A DNA stretch of 64,000 nt from Microcoleus sp. FACHB-831 (GTDB lineage: Bacteria > Cyanobacteriota > Cyanobacteriia > Cyanobacteriales > FACHB-T130), in the NCBI RefSeq assembly GCF_014695585.1, contig NZ_JACJON010000036.1:124001-188000 (forward strand), written 5' to 3'. Both the position numbers and the translations under genes were made by a program. Under the pieces are notes generated by a model that made no database searches, had not been told where the DNA came from, and worked only from the letters and a program-made list of their open reading frames with translations. Within the stretch, counting starts at the first letter, position 1, and the number at the start of each line of letters is the position of its first letter. Below are positions 54,684 to 63,103 of the stretch, piece after piece.

Positions 54684-56810
54684 ATGAAAAATTTCAATTT
54701 TTTAGTATTAACATTAGGCACTCTCATCACTACAGGAGTTAGCAGTGCTAGCGCCCAGACGTTCGCGCCACAGGACGATCGCGCTTCTAGAATCATTGCT
54801 CAGATTCCAAGTGCTGATGAGTTATTTATACAAGCTAGTGAATTGCGAGGAATTGGGAAATATAAAGAAGCGATCGCCGCTTTTGACCAAGTAGTTAAAA
54901 TTAAGCCAAAGTCATTTACAGCTTGGTACTGGCGCGGCTACACGCTGAGTAATTTAGGGCAATATGAAGAAGCGATCGCATCCTACGATCGAGCAATTAA
55001 CCTCCAGCCAAATTACTTTTTAGCTTTGGTTGAAAAAGGCAACGCTCTTTATCAAATGAATCGCTATCAAGAAGCGGCATTATCTTACGATGAAGTTCTT
55101 AAAGCTGATTCTCGCAACTATCAAGCCTGGAAGGGGCGCGGTCTTGCTTTATACCGCTTAAATCGTTATCAAGAAGCGATATCATCAGTAGAAAATGCAG
55201 GCAAAATACAGCCTAACGATTTAGAAATTTCTGGATTGCTAGCAGCGTTAAAAAATTCGGGCACATCCCAAACCGACCTGGAAACATCGCAGCAAAGAAG
55301 CGTTGCAGTCCAAAACGATATCAAGATAGCGCAACAAAATCTTGCTAGCGTTCAAGGGGAAATTCGCACAACAGAAGAAAAACTAAAATTATCTCAATCT
55401 GACTTAAAGACTTCTGAGGGTAGGCTAGTTGCAATTCAAAACGATTTACGCACAGCCGAGTCAAGATTAAATTCTTCCAAAGCAGATTTAGTTGCTCTAG
55501 AAGCCAACATCACCATGGCTGAGGAGAAGCTAAAAACATCTCAGTCTGCTGTAAAAACATCTGAAGAAAGGTTAGTTGCAATTCAAACTGAGGCGCGGGA
55601 ATCGGAGGCAAAATTAAAATCATCCAGAACCGAGTTAGTTGCGCTGCAAAGCGACATCCGCACAGCAGAAGATAAATTTAAAGTATCTCAATCCGAGATT
55701 CGCAAATCTGAAGAAAGGTTGGTTGCTGTTCGTGACAACATCAAAACATCGGAAGATAAGCTAAAAGTATCTCAAGTAGAGATTGGTAAATCTGAAGAGC
55801 GGTTGGTTGCTGTCCGTAACGATATCAAAACCTCGGAAGACAAGCTAAAAGCATATCAAGTGGAATATCGCGAATCTGAACAACAGTTGGTAGCTTTGCG
55901 CGGCGATATTAAATCTTCAGAAGATAAGCTGAAAGCATATCAAGCAGAGTATCGCGAATCCGAACAACAGTTGGTAGCTTTGCGCGGCAATATTAAATCC
56001 TCCGAAGATAAGCTGAAAGCATCGCAGACAGAACTGCAAACATTAGAACAAAGATTAGTTGCAGTGCGAGGAGAGGTTAACACATCGGAAGATAAGCTGA
56101 AAGCCTCTAGTACAGAAATACAGAAATTAGAAGAAAGAATAGTTGCTGTCCGCGAGGATATCAAAACCTCGCAAGACAAACTAAAAGTATCTCAATCAGA
56201 GTATCGCGAATCTGAACAGCAGTTGGTAGCTTTGCGCGGGGATATTAAATCTTCGGAAGATAAACTAAAAGCTTCTCAAGGAGAGTTTGGTAAATCTGAA
56301 GCAAGATTGGTAGCGTTGCGCGGGGAAATTAAATCTTCGGAAGACAAGCTGCAAGCATATCAATCGGAAGCGCAGAAATCTGAAGAAAGGTTGGTAGCTT
56401 TGCGCGGGGATATTAAATCTTCGGAAGATAAGCTGCAAGCATCTAATTCAGAAGTACGCGCTTTAGAAGAAAGGTTAGTGGCTGTTCGCGGGGAAATTAA
56501 ATCTTCGGAAGACAATATTAAGTCAAAAAGATCCGAGATGAAAAGCCTCGAACAAAGTTTAGCTGCGATGCAAGGTGAGGTACGGGAATTTGAAGAAAAA
56601 CTCAAAGTATCTCAAACCGAAATGCGGCAGATGGATGAGAAAAAGCGCGTATCCGCAGACGAATTGCGCGTGATGCAAGTTAATTATTGTGGAATGCAAG
56701 AAAAGCTGAGTGAAATGGAAGTAGGAATACGACAATTAAGAGGTACGGCGCAAGCTTCAGACACAGTTCAGCGTTGTCCGTTCTCGAATAATAGAACTTC
56801 CAAAGACTAA
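54684..56810 (+). CDS. Secreted TPR and coiled-coil repeat protein
   Basis: Signal peptide (NFLVLTLGTLITTGVSSASA). Three TPRs at ~45-180 are followed by a long coiled coil of sixteen near-tandem units, residues 230-663. Fourteen units are 28 residues and two are 21, both multiples of seven, so the heptad register holds. Unit consensus: (S/A)EDKLKxSQxExxxSEERLVA(L/V)R. A short Cys-bearing end (VQRCPFSNNRT) follows. Probably a periplasmic or surface rod. Function unknown. Confidence 0.85.
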   Translation: MKNFNFLVLTLGTLITTGVSSASAQTFAPQDDRASRIIAQIPSADELFIQASELRGIGKYKEAIAAFDQVVKIKPKSFTAWYWRGYTLSNLGQYEEAIASYDRAINLQPNYFLALVEKGNALYQMNRYQEAALSYDEVLKADSRNYQAWKGRGLALYRLNRYQEAISSVENAGKIQPNDLEISGLLAALKNSGTSQTDLETSQQRSVAVQNDIKIAQQNLASVQGEIRTTEEKLKLSQSDLKTSEGRLVAIQNDLRTAESRLNSSKADLVALEANITMAEEKLKTSQSAVKTSEERLVAIQTEARESEAKLKSSRTELVALQSDIRTAEDKFKVSQSEIRKSEERLVAVRDNIKTSEDKLKVSQVEIGKSEERLVAVRNDIKTSEDKLKAYQVEYRESEQQLVALRGDIKSSEDKLKAYQAEYRESEQQLVALRGNIKSSEDKLKASQTELQTLEQRLVAVRGEVNTSEDKLKASSTEIQKLEERIVAVREDIKTSQDKLKVSQSEYRESEQQLVALRGDIKSSEDKLKASQGEFGKSEARLVALRGEIKSSEDKLQAYQSEAQKSEERLVALRGDIKSSEDKLQASNSEVRALEERLVAVRGEIKSSEDNIKSKRSEMKSLEQSLAAMQGEVREFEEKLKVSQTEMRQMDEKKRVSADELRVMQVNYCGMQEKLSEMEVGIRQLRGTAQASDTVQRCPFSNNRTSKD
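55371..56672 (+). repeat. 84-bp coding tandem repeats (heptad-register coiled coil)
   Basis: Fourteen 84-bp units and two 63-bp units cover residues 230-663. The central ones share GATATTAAATCTTCGGAAGA-like stretches at near identity. Length changes occur only in steps of 21 bp (one heptad), so coil register is preserved. Confidence 0.9.
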
Positions 56811-57029: not shown

Positions 57030-59171
57030 ATGACAGGATTTGAACCCATCGTTACGGACGCAGCAATTAAAAGTTTAGTGGGGATCTTTCTTAAAGCAGG
57101 TTGGGATGAGGGAGGCAAGCTACTGGGGCTATTTGGCAATGCTTTAGACGAGAAAACTCAGCAGCTATTTTTTAACGCAACGAGGCAATACGTCCAGAAT
57201 TATAGTGAGCGTCACGGCATCCTGAAAGTTTTGGGAATGCGGGAACCTGTAGCTTTGGAGTCAATATATACTGGCGTTCAGTTTTTGGACGAGCAGGATA
57301 TTTATCGGTTTGAGTCAATTGATAAGCTGGAAAAAGCTTACCGCGAAGCTAAAGGGCGCAGTTATCAGCGTAAAAACCGCCCTAAGCAAGATGGGCTAAA
57401 GGTTGCCAACGAAAAGCAATATTTAATGGTACTGGGCGGGCCAGGAGCAGGAAAGTCTACATTTTTGCGGCGGATGGGACTGGAAGCGCTGAAGGGCGAC
57501 AAGGGAAGCTTTAAGCACGGCTGTATCCCCGTTTTCATCGAATTGAAAAGATTTAACGCTGACGAAATTAATATCGAGAAAGTCATTGCTGACGAGTTTC
57601 GCACCTGTGGTTTTCCCTCCCCTGAGAAATCCACAAAAAAATTATTAGAGCAAGGCAAGTTGCTGATTTTGCTCGATGGGCTGGATGAAGTGCCAACAAA
57701 AAATATGAATGAGGCGATCGGCCAAATTCAGAACTTTGTTGACTTGTACGATAAAAATCGCTTCATTGCCTCCTGTCGCACCGCCGCCTATCGCAGCAGT
57801 TTTCCCCGCTTTAGCGATGTGGCAATGGCAGATTTTGATGATTCCCAGATTGAGCAGTTTATTCATAACTGGTTTCAGTCAGAGGCAGACAAAAAGGCTG
57901 GCACAGCTCAGAAATGCTGGGAGGTATTGCAAAAACCAGAAAATAAAGCTGCCAAAAAGTTAGCCTATACGCCATTATTGCTGAAGTTTCTCTGTATGGT
58001 ATATGAGCGCCATTCTCAAAACTTTCCCGATAAGCGCAGCGATCTATATCGCAAGGCACTGGGGATATTGTTAGAGGAATGGGCGGTAGAAAAGCTGATT
58101 TTGCAAGATGAGATTTATCAAGGACTGCATACAGAGCTACAAGAAATACTTTTATCTGAGATTGCCTACAAAGGTTTCGAGGCAGATAAGCTATTTTTCG
58201 ATCAACGAGAAATTGTCGAGCAAATCAAAACATTTCTAGCAAGTAATCTAAATGCACCTCCGTATGTAGACGGTAAGGCGGTACTGAATGCCATTGCTGT
58301 TCAACAAGGTATTCTGGTAAAGCGAGCCGAGTATATATTTTCGTTCTCCCATTTGACGCTACAGGAATATTTAACTGCCAAATACATTAACGATCGTCAC
58401 CTAGTTGAGAAGTTAGTTACCGAACACCTTTCAGATAAACGCTGGAAAGAGGTGTTTTTGCGTGTAGCTGAATTGATGGACGGTGGGGCATATGACTTGC
58501 TGTTACTGATGGAAAAAGAAGCTCAAAAATACATCAACACTCCCAAGTTAAAAGCTTTACTCAACTGGGCGGAAGAGGCAACAGATGGATCGCAAGGAAA
58601 CTTTAAGCCTGTTGCTAAACGCGCAAATGCGATCGCCATCGCCAACGCCATCACTAACGCCAGCACACGCACTAAAACCTACGCCTACCACATCGCTAAC
58701 GCCTACATCATCGCCTACGCCTACGACATCGCCTACGCCTACGACATCGCCTACGCCAACGTCATCGCCCTCGCCGACGCCACAGTCAACACCACCTGTT
58801 CCGCCCACGATGCCGACGCTATCGCCGTCGGCATCGCGAGCGCCAGCGAACTTGAGAAACTAAAAATCTTCAATAACGTAGACTTTACTAGGCTAAATGC
58901 CCATCTCCAAGCACTGAAAGATAGAATTACCCTCACTAAACAGCCACTGGAAGGGCATCAGAGATTTGAGGGTCGCTTTCAGAAAATCTGGCTCCAAGCT
59001 TTCAATATCGGCCCAGAATTAGTCAATTTATCCGAGGAAGAAGCCAAAGACTTGGAAAATTACTTATACGCCAATTACCTCATATTGCAGTGCAAACAAG
59101 CAGAAGTGCCGGTGTCGCCTAAAACATGGGAAGAAATAGAGGAGCGGATGTTGCTTATTCCTAATAAATAA
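57030..59171 (+). CDS. NACHT-domain NTPase with hexapeptide-like C-terminal tail
   Basis: Residues ~1-125 are an N-terminal helical domain (AAIKSLVGIFLKAGWDEGGK). NACHT follows with Walker A LGGPGAGKSTF and Walker B LLILLDGLDEVP, plus a sensor segment FIASCRTAAYRS. A helical arm region (FSFSHLTLQEYLTAKYI) precedes a low-complexity stretch at ~534-588 made of IAYAYD/IANAYI-type hexapeptides, then a ~100-residue end. STAND NTPases of this kind are NLR-like and several act in phage defence; the role here is unproven. Upstream ATG at 57030; no good ribosome site. Confidence 0.88.
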   Translation: MTGFEPIVTDAAIKSLVGIFLKAGWDEGGKLLGLFGNALDEKTQQLFFNATRQYVQNYSERHGILKVLGMREPVALESIYTGVQFLDEQDIYRFESIDKLEKAYREAKGRSYQRKNRPKQDGLKVANEKQYLMVLGGPGAGKSTFLRRMGLEALKGDKGSFKHGCIPVFIELKRFNADEINIEKVIADEFRTCGFPSPEKSTKKLLEQGKLLILLDGLDEVPTKNMNEAIGQIQNFVDLYDKNRFIASCRTAAYRSSFPRFSDVAMADFDDSQIEQFIHNWFQSEADKKAGTAQKCWEVLQKPENKAAKKLAYTPLLLKFLCMVYERHSQNFPDKRSDLYRKALGILLEEWAVEKLILQDEIYQGLHTELQEILLSEIAYKGFEADKLFFDQREIVEQIKTFLASNLNAPPYVDGKAVLNAIAVQQGILVKRAEYIFSFSHLTLQEYLTAKYINDRHLVEKLVTEHLSDKRWKEVFLRVAELMDGGAYDLLLLMEKEAQKYINTPKLKALLNWAEEATDGSQGNFKPVAKRANAIAIANAITNASTRTKTYAYHIANAYIIAYAYDIAYAYDIAYANVIALADATVNTTCSAHDADAIAVGIASASELEKLKIFNNVDFTRLNAHLQALKDRITLTKQPLEGHQRFEGRFQKIWLQAFNIGPELVNLSEEEAKDLENYLYANYLILQCKQAEVPVSPKTWEEIEERMLLIPNK
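58629..58795 (+). repeat. GC-rich hexapeptide-coding repeat in the NACHT gene
   Basis: Repeated ATCGCCTACGCCTACGAC-type 18-bp units (e.g. twice near 58710-58750) with C-ending codons encode IAYAYD-like hexapeptides. Composition is distinctly more GC-rich than the surrounding gene. Confidence 0.75.
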
Positions 59172-60163: not shown

Positions 60164-60413
60164 AGAGCAGATGTTTCTCCAGCCAGGGTGATGTCCTCAC
60201 CCCCAACCCCCCTCCTGCGAGGAGAGGGGAGAATTTCTGTCCCTTCTGATTTCGTGAAGTGGGTTGGGGTGAGGTTGCGTATCTAATAACTAGCAATAAA
60301 TAGGAAACTGCGATCGCGCCTCCAGAAGACTCATTGTAACGGAATAGCAAAACCAACCAAAATAAAGTAAGAGCTTGTTTACTAGCCCGACCGCCACCCT
60401 CTTCAATATTGAT

Positions 60414-61847
60414 ATGCAAACAACCAGCAAACCCGCTACCCGCAAAGCTTGGGCAAAAGCGATCGCGCAACCAGGCAAAGAATTTCCTCTCACTCCCCTA
60501 CCTCTGCTATCTGGCAAAATTCCCGCAGGCTTGCGCGGAACCCTCTATCGCAATGGCCCCGGTAGGCTGGAACGCGGTGGCATACCAGTGGGACACTGGT
60601 TTGATGGAGATGGTGCCATCCTCGGCGTACATTTCACCGATGCGGGTGCTACCGGACTCTATCGCTACGTGCAAACAGAAGGCTACAAAGAAGAAACTGC
60701 CGCTGATAAGTTACTTTACGGCAACTATGGCATGACCGCACCGGGGCCAATATGGAATAAATGGCTCAAATCCGTTAAAAATGTCGCCAATACCTCTGTT
60801 ATCGCGCTACCCGATAAACTCTTAGCACTGTGGGAAGGAGGCGAACCCCACGCACTGGACTTAGAAACGCTGGAAACTAAGGGATTAGAGGATCTATCTG
60901 GGTTAAATAAGCTATTGCCTTATTCTGCTCATCCCAAGTGCGACGCGGAGACTGGGGAAATATTCAATTTTGGCGTTACCCCTGGATTGAAATCGACGCT
61001 GAATATTTATAAGAGCGATCGCACTGGCAAAATTTTACAAAAATCATCAGTTACTCTCGATGGTCTTCCCTTAATTCATGATTTTGTCATGGCTGGGCAA
61101 TATCTCGTGTTTTTCATTCCCCCAGTCCGCGTAAATGCCATTCCCGTCCTAATAGGTTTAAACAGCTACAGTGACGCGATGGAATGGCAACCCAAGTTAG
61201 GAACTCAAATTTTAGTTTTTGACCGCGAAACTTTATCTTTAGTCAGTCGTGGAGAAACAGAATCTTGGTATCAGTGGCATTTCGGTAACGGCTACGTCGA
61301 TGATAGCGGTTCAATTATTATCGATTTTGCCCGCTATCAAGACTTTACAACTAACCAACGTCTCAAAGAAATAGCAACAGGACAAACTAAAACCGCCGCA
61401 GAAGCTAATTTGTGGCAAGTGCATATCAACCCCCAAACCAGCAAAGTAACTGAATTGGAGAAATTGGTAGATCGAGATTGTGAATTCCCAGTCATACCGC
61501 CGTCGCAATTCGGTCAACCTTCGCGCTATACCTATCTTTCGGTGCAAAAGAAAGGGGTAGATATCAGCCAAGAAATATATGGCGCGATCGCTCGTTTCGA
61601 CGGCAAAACCCACACTCTCACCGAAGCTGACTTGGGTGAAAATCGCTATCCGATGGAACCAATTTATGCCCCCGATGCGATTAATCCTAGCCAAGGTTGG
61701 ATAGTTACAGTCGTCTATGATGGCAATTCTGATACTAGCGAAGTTTGGGTTTACGATAGCGATCGCCTGGATGAACCACCTGTTTGTAAGCTAGGATTAC
61801 CTAGCGTCATCCCTATGGGATTTCACGGCACTTGGAAGCCTGCTTAA
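60414..61847 (+). CDS. Carotenoid cleavage oxygenase (apocarotenoid type)
   Basis: Seven-bladed propeller non-heme iron oxygenase. The four-His iron site appears as YSAHPKCD, LIHDFVM, YQWHFGNGYVD and MGFHGTW. N-terminal LRGTLYRNGPGRLERGGIPV is typical. Probably cleaves apocarotenals to retinal like the Synechocystis ACO. The ATG at 60414 gives MQTTSKPATRKAW; the frame opens at 60375. Confidence 0.92.
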   Translation: MQTTSKPATRKAWAKAIAQPGKEFPLTPLPLLSGKIPAGLRGTLYRNGPGRLERGGIPVGHWFDGDGAILGVHFTDAGATGLYRYVQTEGYKEETAADKLLYGNYGMTAPGPIWNKWLKSVKNVANTSVIALPDKLLALWEGGEPHALDLETLETKGLEDLSGLNKLLPYSAHPKCDAETGEIFNFGVTPGLKSTLNIYKSDRTGKILQKSSVTLDGLPLIHDFVMAGQYLVFFIPPVRVNAIPVLIGLNSYSDAMEWQPKLGTQILVFDRETLSLVSRGETESWYQWHFGNGYVDDSGSIIIDFARYQDFTTNQRLKEIATGQTKTAAEANLWQVHINPQTSKVTELEKLVDRDCEFPVIPPSQFGQPSRYTYLSVQKKGVDISQEIYGAIARFDGKTHTLTEADLGENRYPMEPIYAPDAINPSQGWIVTVVYDGNSDTSEVWVYDSDRLDEPPVCKLGLPSVIPMGFHGTWKPA

Positions 61848-61999: not shown

Positions 62000-62548
62000 C
62001 TAAGCATTCTGGGGCGTTCTTCTGCCGCTGCCCCGGTTTGCCGAATCTTCTGACTCTTCAGCCACTACTATATACCCTGAGTTTTGCAGCTTAAAAGCAT
62101 AGCGATTTTCGCTATCAATTTGCTTAAAAATGTTGTTAGCCGCACCAGGGGTTTTCCTGCCGCTGCCACGATTGTAAGTACCCTGGCTTGGTTTTTGAGC
62201 AACTAAATGTTGTTGAATACCATCAGAATTTCCACCATTATTTAGTTGCGTGAAATTTCTATTACTTTGGACATCTCTGCGTCCGCTGCCGCGATTATCT
62301 TTGCTTTCTCCGGAATTTTCAGCCGCTACTTTAAAAGCGTCGCTAGAGTCAATATCAACTTGATATGGCGTTTTTCTGCCGCTACCACGATTATCTTTAT
62401 TACCATCTAATTTTTCAGCCACTAAATGTGTTTGCATGAAATCGGAGTTTTGTAGCTTAAAAGCGTCCTTTGCAGCCGCATCTTTTAAATTAACGCTTAA
62501 GCCAGTCAGTAACATAGTTGATAAAAGAATAGTATTGGAGACGCGCAT
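62000..62548 (-). CDS. Secreted protein with four RGSGR pentapeptides (PatX/PatS-like motif)
   Basis: A 182-residue protein with a signal peptide (MRVSNTILLSTMLLTGLSVN, cut near DAAA at ~26). The mature chain holds four modules, each ending NRGSGR(K/R), with RGSGR at residues 54-58, 86-90, 127-131 and 172-176, mostly followed by TP. Modules start with AFKLQNS or similar. RGSGR is the HetR-binding pentapeptide of PatS, HetN and PatX. An export signal plus RG(S/T)GR is the layout described for PatX in filamentous cyanobacteria. AAGGA lies ~10 nt before the ATG. It stands alone. Homology to PatX is inferred from layout and motif, not alignment. Confidence 0.75.
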   Translation of the reverse strand: MRVSNTILLSTMLLTGLSVNLKDAAAKDAFKLQNSDFMQTHLVAEKLDGNKDNRGSGRKTPYQVDIDSSDAFKVAAENSGESKDNRGSGRRDVQSNRNFTQLNNGGNSDGIQQHLVAQKPSQGTYNRGSGRKTPGAANNIFKQIDSENRYAFKLQNSGYIVVAEESEDSANRGSGRRTPQNA

Positions 62549-63103
62549 TTGTGATGTCCTTGTTTGATGATCTACTCACTTATCCCCACTTGCTAATGAG
62601 CTATCAGTACAAAAATAAAAATATTTTCTGCAAAGAGTAAAATTAAAAAAACCCCCGGTTTTATCAAAAAAACCGGGGGTTAGAGTTTGCAGAGAGTGGC
62701 GCGAGCGCTTTGCAAATAAAAATATTTTTTGTCTCGCGCTCTAGAGCAAATTCATTAGCAAGCCAAATATAAAAAGCATTTTTCTTGCTATCTTATCTAA
62801 GGATTTATTGATATATAACGACAAAATTAGACGCGCATAATTCTGTTTGTATTTGAGCTTCTACTGCTTAATCCAGACTTGGTGCTAAGCCATCCGGAGA
62901 AAATCCACAATGCTAAGTAGAAAAGTATTATTATCTGTAAAAACAATAATTAGGCGTAGCAGCCTAAGCCATGCGCTAGGGCGATCGCACCCATAGCGCA
63001 CCCCAGCGGAAAGCAAAGCCAACATGGGACAAATGCCCGCGATCGCCAGGGTCGCCTGGTTGGGGAGCCTGCATCTATACTGAGATTACCCAGCCCGTGC
63101 CTT
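62549..63103. other. Intergenic region upstream of the RGSGR gene
   Basis: Contains the minus-strand terminator at 62643-62681, a GCGCGAG/CTCGCGC long-range stem (62699-62740) and a direct repeat AAATAAAAATATTTT (62613-62627 and 62714-62728). A GC-rich segment with HIP1 sites lies at ~62945-63070. No protein gene is convincing. Minus-strand transcription from ~62.9 kb that stops at the hairpin would give a ~250-nt RNA. Confidence 0.5.
62643..62681 (-). terminator. Strong minus-strand terminator with no upstream minus-strand gene
   Basis: On the minus strand AACCCCCGGTTTT (62681-62669) and AAAACCGGGGGTT (62662-62650) form a perfect 13-bp stem with a 6-nt loop, followed by TTTTTTTAATTTT. The plus strand has no T-run after the stem. 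It lies ~100 nt upstream of the RGSGR gene, in the same direction. Confidence 0.75.

Follow-up and report, generated by a model that had tools for sequence, protein, structure and literature searches.

PatX was reportedly defined by Elhai and Khudyakov in 2018. In Nostoc, PatX is exported and matured by PatP, and HRGTGR inhibits HetR, as described in a survey of 474 genomes with 159 PatX homologs (PMC12756182). The Anabaena HetR holds the XRGSGR hexapeptide through R223, E253, E254, D256, D270, and D278, the first side chain of the peptide being irrelevant; E253A abolishes peptide binding and the Kd for PatS6 is 1626 nM with D278A as against 12 nM without it, D278N not having been measured there (PMC4649674). 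According to the same source, a longer peptide N-terminus should lower the affinity for HetR, and R223 lies near the C-terminal carboxyl of the peptide. In Leptolyngbya BL0902, which has no heterocysts, the effects of PatX are largely independent of HetR (PMC11298460).

The window, meaning the whole stretch of 64,000 nucleotides that was analyzed, contains a genuine gene of the PatX family whose four motif copies are conserved (Table 1); the mechanism proposed for it is inferred by analogy with PatX and PatS of Nostoc and Anabaena. According to the ORF list, the gene starts with ATG at 62548 and reads on the minus strand to 62000, confirming the 182-aa protein with four NRGSGR[K/R] units claimed in the initial annotation. 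The protein scored 40.9 bits against the NCBIfam PatX equivalog NF047413 and thus passes the cut-off of 30; the match falls into two stretches, the best covering residues 1-59 (PatX model positions 1-67). Its N-terminal start, MRVSNTILLSTMLLTGLSVNLKDAAAK, resembles a Sec signal peptide, judged by eye and without a predictor, and export is inferred from this appearance together with the match to PatX model positions 1-67. RGSGR begins at residues 54, 86, 127, and 172, always with N before it and with K, R, K, and R, respectively, after it. With distances of 32, 41, and 45 residues, the spacing is modular and not strictly regular, so the regularity first claimed for it is only approximate.

Table 1. 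Coordinates of the patX-type gene, its motifs, its leader, and the adjoining oxygenase gene (positions are those of the window)
Feature	Position	Strand	Basis
patX-type gene encoding 182 aa with four NRGSGR[K/R] units	62000..62548	(-)	ORF; NCBIfam NF047413
Signal-peptide-like start, residues 1-26	62471..62548	(-)	Sequence reading only
NRGSGR copy 1, residues 53-58	62375..62392	(-)	ORF translation
NRGSGR copy 2, residues 85-90	62279..62296	(-)	ORF translation
NRGSGR copy 3, residues 126-131	62156..62173	(-)	ORF translation
NRGSGR copy 4, residues 171-176	62021..62038	(-)	ORF translation
First of four LVAE-like tetrapeptides (LVAE, residue 42)	62414..62425	(-)	Position; enrichment across PatX
TACTGA at -61, proximal degenerate copy of patX promoter region	62604..62609	(-)	50-nt comparison
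Terminator-like hairpin, 13 pairs then T run	62650..62681	(-)	Leader fold
Relic gene start ATGCGCGTCTAA (MRV-stop; ATGCGCGTC-TAA) at -290	62827..62838	(-)	Leader sequence
TCCGGA, DIF1-type motif, at -350	62893..62898	(-)	Exact match
RPE65-type carotenoid oxygenase gene	60375-61847	(+)	Adjoins far end of window gene

Apart from the four exact copies, no five residues of the protein come within two mismatches of RGSGR. A chance origin was ruled out, as 200,000 shuffles of the protein gave 148 sequences with one RGSGR, one with two, and none with more. No Pfam family was matched at E up to 1, which means that there is no HetN-like ketoreductase domain and excludes HetN; the PatS model NF047415 was likewise unmatched at E up to 1, which excludes PatS. 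A peptide-pattern search for close relatives of the whole protein found none in genome contigs and none in plasmids.

Beyond the start of the gene lie a Uma2 gene and miaB. Five other genomes of the same family f1 were compared: four (G387-G390) have a PatX with one HRGSGR between the same oxygenase and miaB, and the fifth (G386) had no PatX match. Since four of five relatives have a one-copy PatX at the same locus, the simplest reading of these comparisons is an expansion from one to four copies in the host lineage. The four 15-nt motif sequences are all distinct, which rules out recent DNA duplication in this gene. The flanks of 80 named MiaB loci, some of which end at contig ends, contained no PatX-type RG[ST]GR ORF of 51-349 residues, and the one RGTGR found there lies inside an unrelated 267-aa frame. 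Elsewhere in the window, two repetitive proteins are encoded on the plus strand: a 708-aa protein with N-terminal TPR repeats and a long repetitive coiled-coil-like part of EDKLK..SEERLVA units (54684-56810), and a NACHT-domain protein with an NCH2 helical domain and an Ala/Ile/Tyr-rich repetitive stretch between (57030-59171).

The host genome (6.42 Mb, 99.44% complete) has one HetR_C match, which scored 589.3 bits against the NCBI HetR equivalog (cut-off 489), aligns over 300 residues with the solved HetR structure 4HRI, and keeps all six pocket residues in Anabaena numbering. Absence of hetR, which had been named as a refutation of the PatX interpretation, is thus not what was found. A second PatX with a single QRGSGRR is present on another contig (40.7 bits), and the four-copy gene is a PatX paralog unlinked to hetR in the assembly. 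The best nifK match reached only 22.3 bits (cut-off 427.3), and the host is therefore very probably non-diazotrophic and would have no use for heterocysts, nifK being the only nif or heterocyst gene searched. The suggestion of a non-heterocystous host is compatible with this result to the extent that nifK can speak for it.

Nucleotide comparisons suggest that promoter and gene start were duplicated in the leader of the gene and that the upstream copy has since decayed. The 50 nt around the distal TCCGGA are identical at 32-35 of 50 positions to the -60 promoter regions of four relatives, and those around the proximal TACTGA at 30-32 of 50 to the promoter regions of four relatives, the best of 200 shuffles per row being 28 of 50. 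The relic start sits sixty nt past the distal TCCGGA, and its first ten bases are those of the real gene start. The terminator-like hairpin is placed between the two promoter-like copies, and the leader folds more strongly than 100 of 100 shuffles (z -4.5). One-copy relatives in f1 have TCCTGA at -60. Possible identities for the leader (62549-62898, minus strand) are a tandem copy that has decayed, a small RNA, and an attenuator. No known RNA family reached its gathering score there, NsiR1 obtaining 26.4 of the 39 bits required, essentially from the hairpin. A mobile element was also considered and rejected, because the only matches to a 302-nt stretch of the leader, other than the stretch itself, were 35 and 32 nt long, and it is hence not a multi-copy element. 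Of 95 PatX genes overall, 61 have an exact TCCGGA in the 700 nt ahead of them, most often between -60 and -69, where shuffles predict about 10% (~0.10 per gene); of the array genes, only 3 of 15 have one.

PatX-model matches were found in 62 of 386 genomes across the phylum (E<=0.001), and within the order in at least 194 of 388 genomes at E<=0.01, with at least 168 over the cut-off. From the phylum, order, and whole-family searches, 117 distinct proteins were collected among the matches listed and their motifs counted with the regular expression RG[ST]GR: 99 have one motif, one (L139, an RGGGR protein) has none, and 17 have two or more. This is not a frequency, because long frames were fetched first and not all order-wide matches were taken. 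The 17 multi-copy proteins come from 17 genomes of five families and have 2-6, 11, or 17 copies, so that copy number among relatives varies from one to 17, as the initial annotation had asked about, and a four-copy precursor is unusual as suggested, though not unique. In f1, only the host (G000, four copies) has an array among six genomes. Family f58 has arrays in five of ten genomes (three copies each in G405, G427, and G447; four each in G480 and G416) and f50 in all eight (two in G410; three each in G466, G397, G423, and G433; five in G443; six each in G454 and G478). The longest ones occur in two of 14 genomes of f18 (11 copies in G229 and 17 in G439), and f7, of which only part of the genomes was examined, contributes one two-copy gene (G638). 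Units vary by genus, e.g., IKSDFQSFD(D)GRGSGR in G439 and QLLAENSESDDSAHRGSGRKEQ in G443, and the residue preceding RGSGR across PatX may be N, S, G, A, D, H, Q, or E. Because most relatives in f1 and f18 have one copy, the expansions in these two families look independent on sequence comparison; no tree was built, and the number of origins is undetermined. A known patterning signal thus appears to have been turned into a multi-peptide precursor more than once.

Eight other array proteins were scanned against NCBIfam. Five exceeded the PatX cut-off (L158, L181, L183, L168, and L176), and three were below it: L149 with 17 copies (15.8 bits), L138 with 11 copies (23.3), and L171 (25.8). The six-frame search gave 34.1 bits for the 11-copy match, which passed, and 26.1 for the 17-copy match, which failed; assignment of these two arrays to PatX relies on the similar start and the motif. 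The 17-copy array (L149) consists of near-identical units of 15-16 residues; the 11-copy PatX array of G229 is found at L138/L120. Tandem duplication of whole patX genes also occurs, with two model matches on one strand ~0.65-0.9 kb apart in L108 (G336), G039:C35, and G354:C145. Furthermore, second PatX-like proteins with a PRGTSRR core adjoin hetR in L068 (G390) and L069 (G389), and RGGGR or RGEGR cores occur in six f7 frames (L097, L103, L104, L106, L111, and L125). Both groups are unmatched by the regular expression and were left out of the 117; such altered cores are natural variants for tests of HetR specificity.

In genomes with HetR_C, 15 of 16 array genes do not share a contig with hetR or, in the case of G454, are ~1.9 Mb from it, and the two-copy gene of G638 is the sole one that adjoins hetR. 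A one-copy PatX lies within ~2 kb of HetR_C in G443, G454, G478, G466, G423, G433, G397, and G416. As far as draft assemblies show, it is therefore the unlinked paralog that has expanded. The neighborhoods of the 11-copy and five-copy arrays (nine ORFs compared with Pfam) revealed no shared partner; a Peptidase_S66 protein is encoded near the 11-copy array.

We consider it reasonably probable that the window gene encodes a polyprecursor releasing several XRGSGR inhibitors of HetR, with export, cutting, travel, and action inferred from PatX and PatS of Nostoc and Anabaena. A single unit of pro-segment and XRGSGR would have become four units inside one gene, the protein would be exported, and an extracytoplasmic PatP-like peptidase would cut on both sides of each NRGSGR. 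The freed hexapeptides might then reach neighboring cells, bind the HetR hood-domain pocket, and lift HetR off the DNA, with up to four inhibitor molecules per precursor (the dose effect is inferred). In an apparently non-diazotrophic filament, the HetR-PatX pair would be expected to control a process other than heterocyst formation, e.g., necridia or filament breakage, this role also being inferred. Each motif should need to be cut free, an inference from the lower affinity of peptides with longer N-termini and from the position of R223 by the free C-terminus. As K or R follows each NRGSGR, cutting must leave the last R exposed, and we know of no enzyme that does so. The multivalent PatX-like precursor originally envisaged is supported by the passed PatX model, the presence of hetR, the one-copy orthologs at the locus, and the range of copy numbers among relatives. 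What can be read from sequence alone, without expression, cutting, or binding data for this organism, is family membership, four conserved copies, a hetR with an intact pocket, and the one-copy state in relatives. The scarcity of exact TCCGGA upstream of array genes counts against a HetR-directed polyprecursor.

Other explanations for the arrays have to be considered. If one copy suffices, the repeats could be neutral products of slippage or unequal recombination, as the few motif nucleotide versions in the 11- and 17-copy arrays (four and three, respectively) would be expected from recent expansion and as some f58 proteins end in decayed units such as FGNGR. We regard this as very improbable, since motif residues are kept in the window gene and in the f50 and f58 arrays while synonymous sites and spacers change. 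Thirty comparisons of motif codons within the window gene gave 16 differences, every one of them synonymous, which follows from only exact motifs being compared. Across 11 ortholog pairs (nine multi-copy and two one-copy, sharing members and therefore not independent), 180 motif columns showed no residue changes and 27 synonymous ones, against 348 and 155, respectively, in 1272 other columns beyond residue 24. RGSGR is thus the most conserved part of mature PatX in the pairs compared, contrary to the loss of RGSGR conservation among homologs that would have refuted the initial annotation, and by this substitution pattern each motif copy is being kept in the arrays covered. Neutrality is disfavored in this way for arrays of three to six copies; those of two, 11, and 17 copies, as well as G466 and G416, were outside the test. 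Alternatively, the array may tune release and not amount, through stepwise cutting or occupancy of the peptidase, giving a signal of longer duration or different spread, with motif number acting through the kinetics of processing. The pro-segment is repeated along with the motif as if processing sites had been copied: the four units of the window protein have diverged from one another, and each keeps an LVAE-like tetrapeptide (LVAE at residue 42, VAAE at 74, LVAQ at 115, VVAE at 161) that begins 12, 12, 12, and 11 residues before its RGSGR. Such tetrapeptides precede RGSGR in 36 of 99 one-copy PatX (500 shuffles: mean 5.2, maximum 13) and in 29 of 54 units from arrays of up to six copies (mean 2.1, maximum 8). 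The pattern was fixed in the script but picked after the sequences had been seen, and the proteins are related, so these tests are not independent; a processing signal is possible and no more than a guess. With the same fixed pattern, the tetrapeptide is absent from all 28 units in the 11- and 17-copy arrays and kinetic data are lacking, which makes tuning of release a quite unlikely main function.

It is also conceivable, albeit unlikely, that the peptides are real signals whose main receptor in these heterocyst-free filaments is not HetR, acting as an independent signal via the envelope or another regulator. The largely HetR-independent effects in Leptolyngbya BL0902 (PMC11298460) would agree with this, and two genomes speak for it. 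HetR_C, the only domain searched for, was unmatched in the 11-copy genome G229 (99% complete, 320 contigs), and HetR of the 17-copy genome G439 (L300) has D278N, together with additional residues close to E253 and to its end. These two states and the Leptolyngbya result count against a simple HetR story. On the other hand, HetR_C was found in 24 of 25 genomes checked, including 16 of 17 with arrays and all eight without, and 23 of the 24 proteins (15 of 16 in array genomes) retain the full set of six pocket residues. Moreover, the conserved part is the RGSGR core that HetR reads, and the residue before it varies, as binding allows. The genomes with the two longest arrays are the ones in which the state of HetR is unusual. 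Two cases are no trend, but they suggest either that a higher dose makes up for weak binding by the receptor or that these arrays act on a different receptor, the latter fitting the Leptolyngbya data (PMC11298460). Going back to HetR-directed polyprecursors, these (with 2-17 cores) may have evolved repeatedly in filamentous cyanobacteria as dose-setters and grown longest where the HetR pocket was weakened or HetR itself was lost, by co-evolution of array length with affinity or by a new receptor, but this generalization is tentative and we consider it doubtful.

In the text of the 474-genome survey, 'repeats' does not occur and 'tandem' and 'copies' occur only in other senses, its supplements not being covered (PMC12756182). 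No mention of multi-copy PatX was found in the parts of the open literature available to us (PMC12756182, PMC7761841, PMC11298460, PMC5812504, and PMC3542288). Multi-copy PatX is apparently a recurrent and undescribed class, with priority unsettled, as the 2018 defining paper was outside this literature scope. Should all copies be released, the amount of a morphogen-like inhibitor, in one of the simplest patterns in biology, would be encoded in a gene as the number of active peptides, and nature would provide a series of 1, 2, 3, 4, 5, 6, 11, and 17 copies for tests of dose, range, and processing. The D278N HetR that accompanies the 17-copy array lends itself directly to testing whether ligand and receptor co-evolve. 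Multi-copy PatX also bears on the role of HetR and PatX in filaments without heterocysts.

Of the described systems, PatX (NF047413; Nostoc/Anabaena PCC 7120) resembles the window protein, which has a model score over the cut-off, a similar start, the RGSGR core, and HetR in its genome. Less clear is the DIF1-type motif upstream, whose exact copy lies far off, ahead of the relic start and the hairpin, while the near copy is degenerate. The window protein differs in having four constrained motifs instead of one, the single pentapeptide being the usual state in the collected set, and 182 instead of the 56 aa in Nostoc (PMC12756182). In addition, N precedes RGSGR where Nostoc has HRGTGR, and the gene does not adjoin hetR. 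PatS (NF047415) and HetN have in common with it the RGSGR core acting on HetR (PMC7761841). Unlike these, the window protein has neither a PatS model match nor a HetN-type ketoreductase domain. The yeast alpha-factor precursor is one exported chain in which spacers separate several active peptide copies. The window protein has the same multi-copy layout without homology to it, and its peptide core is that of an inhibitor of bacterial development that a transcription factor recognizes.
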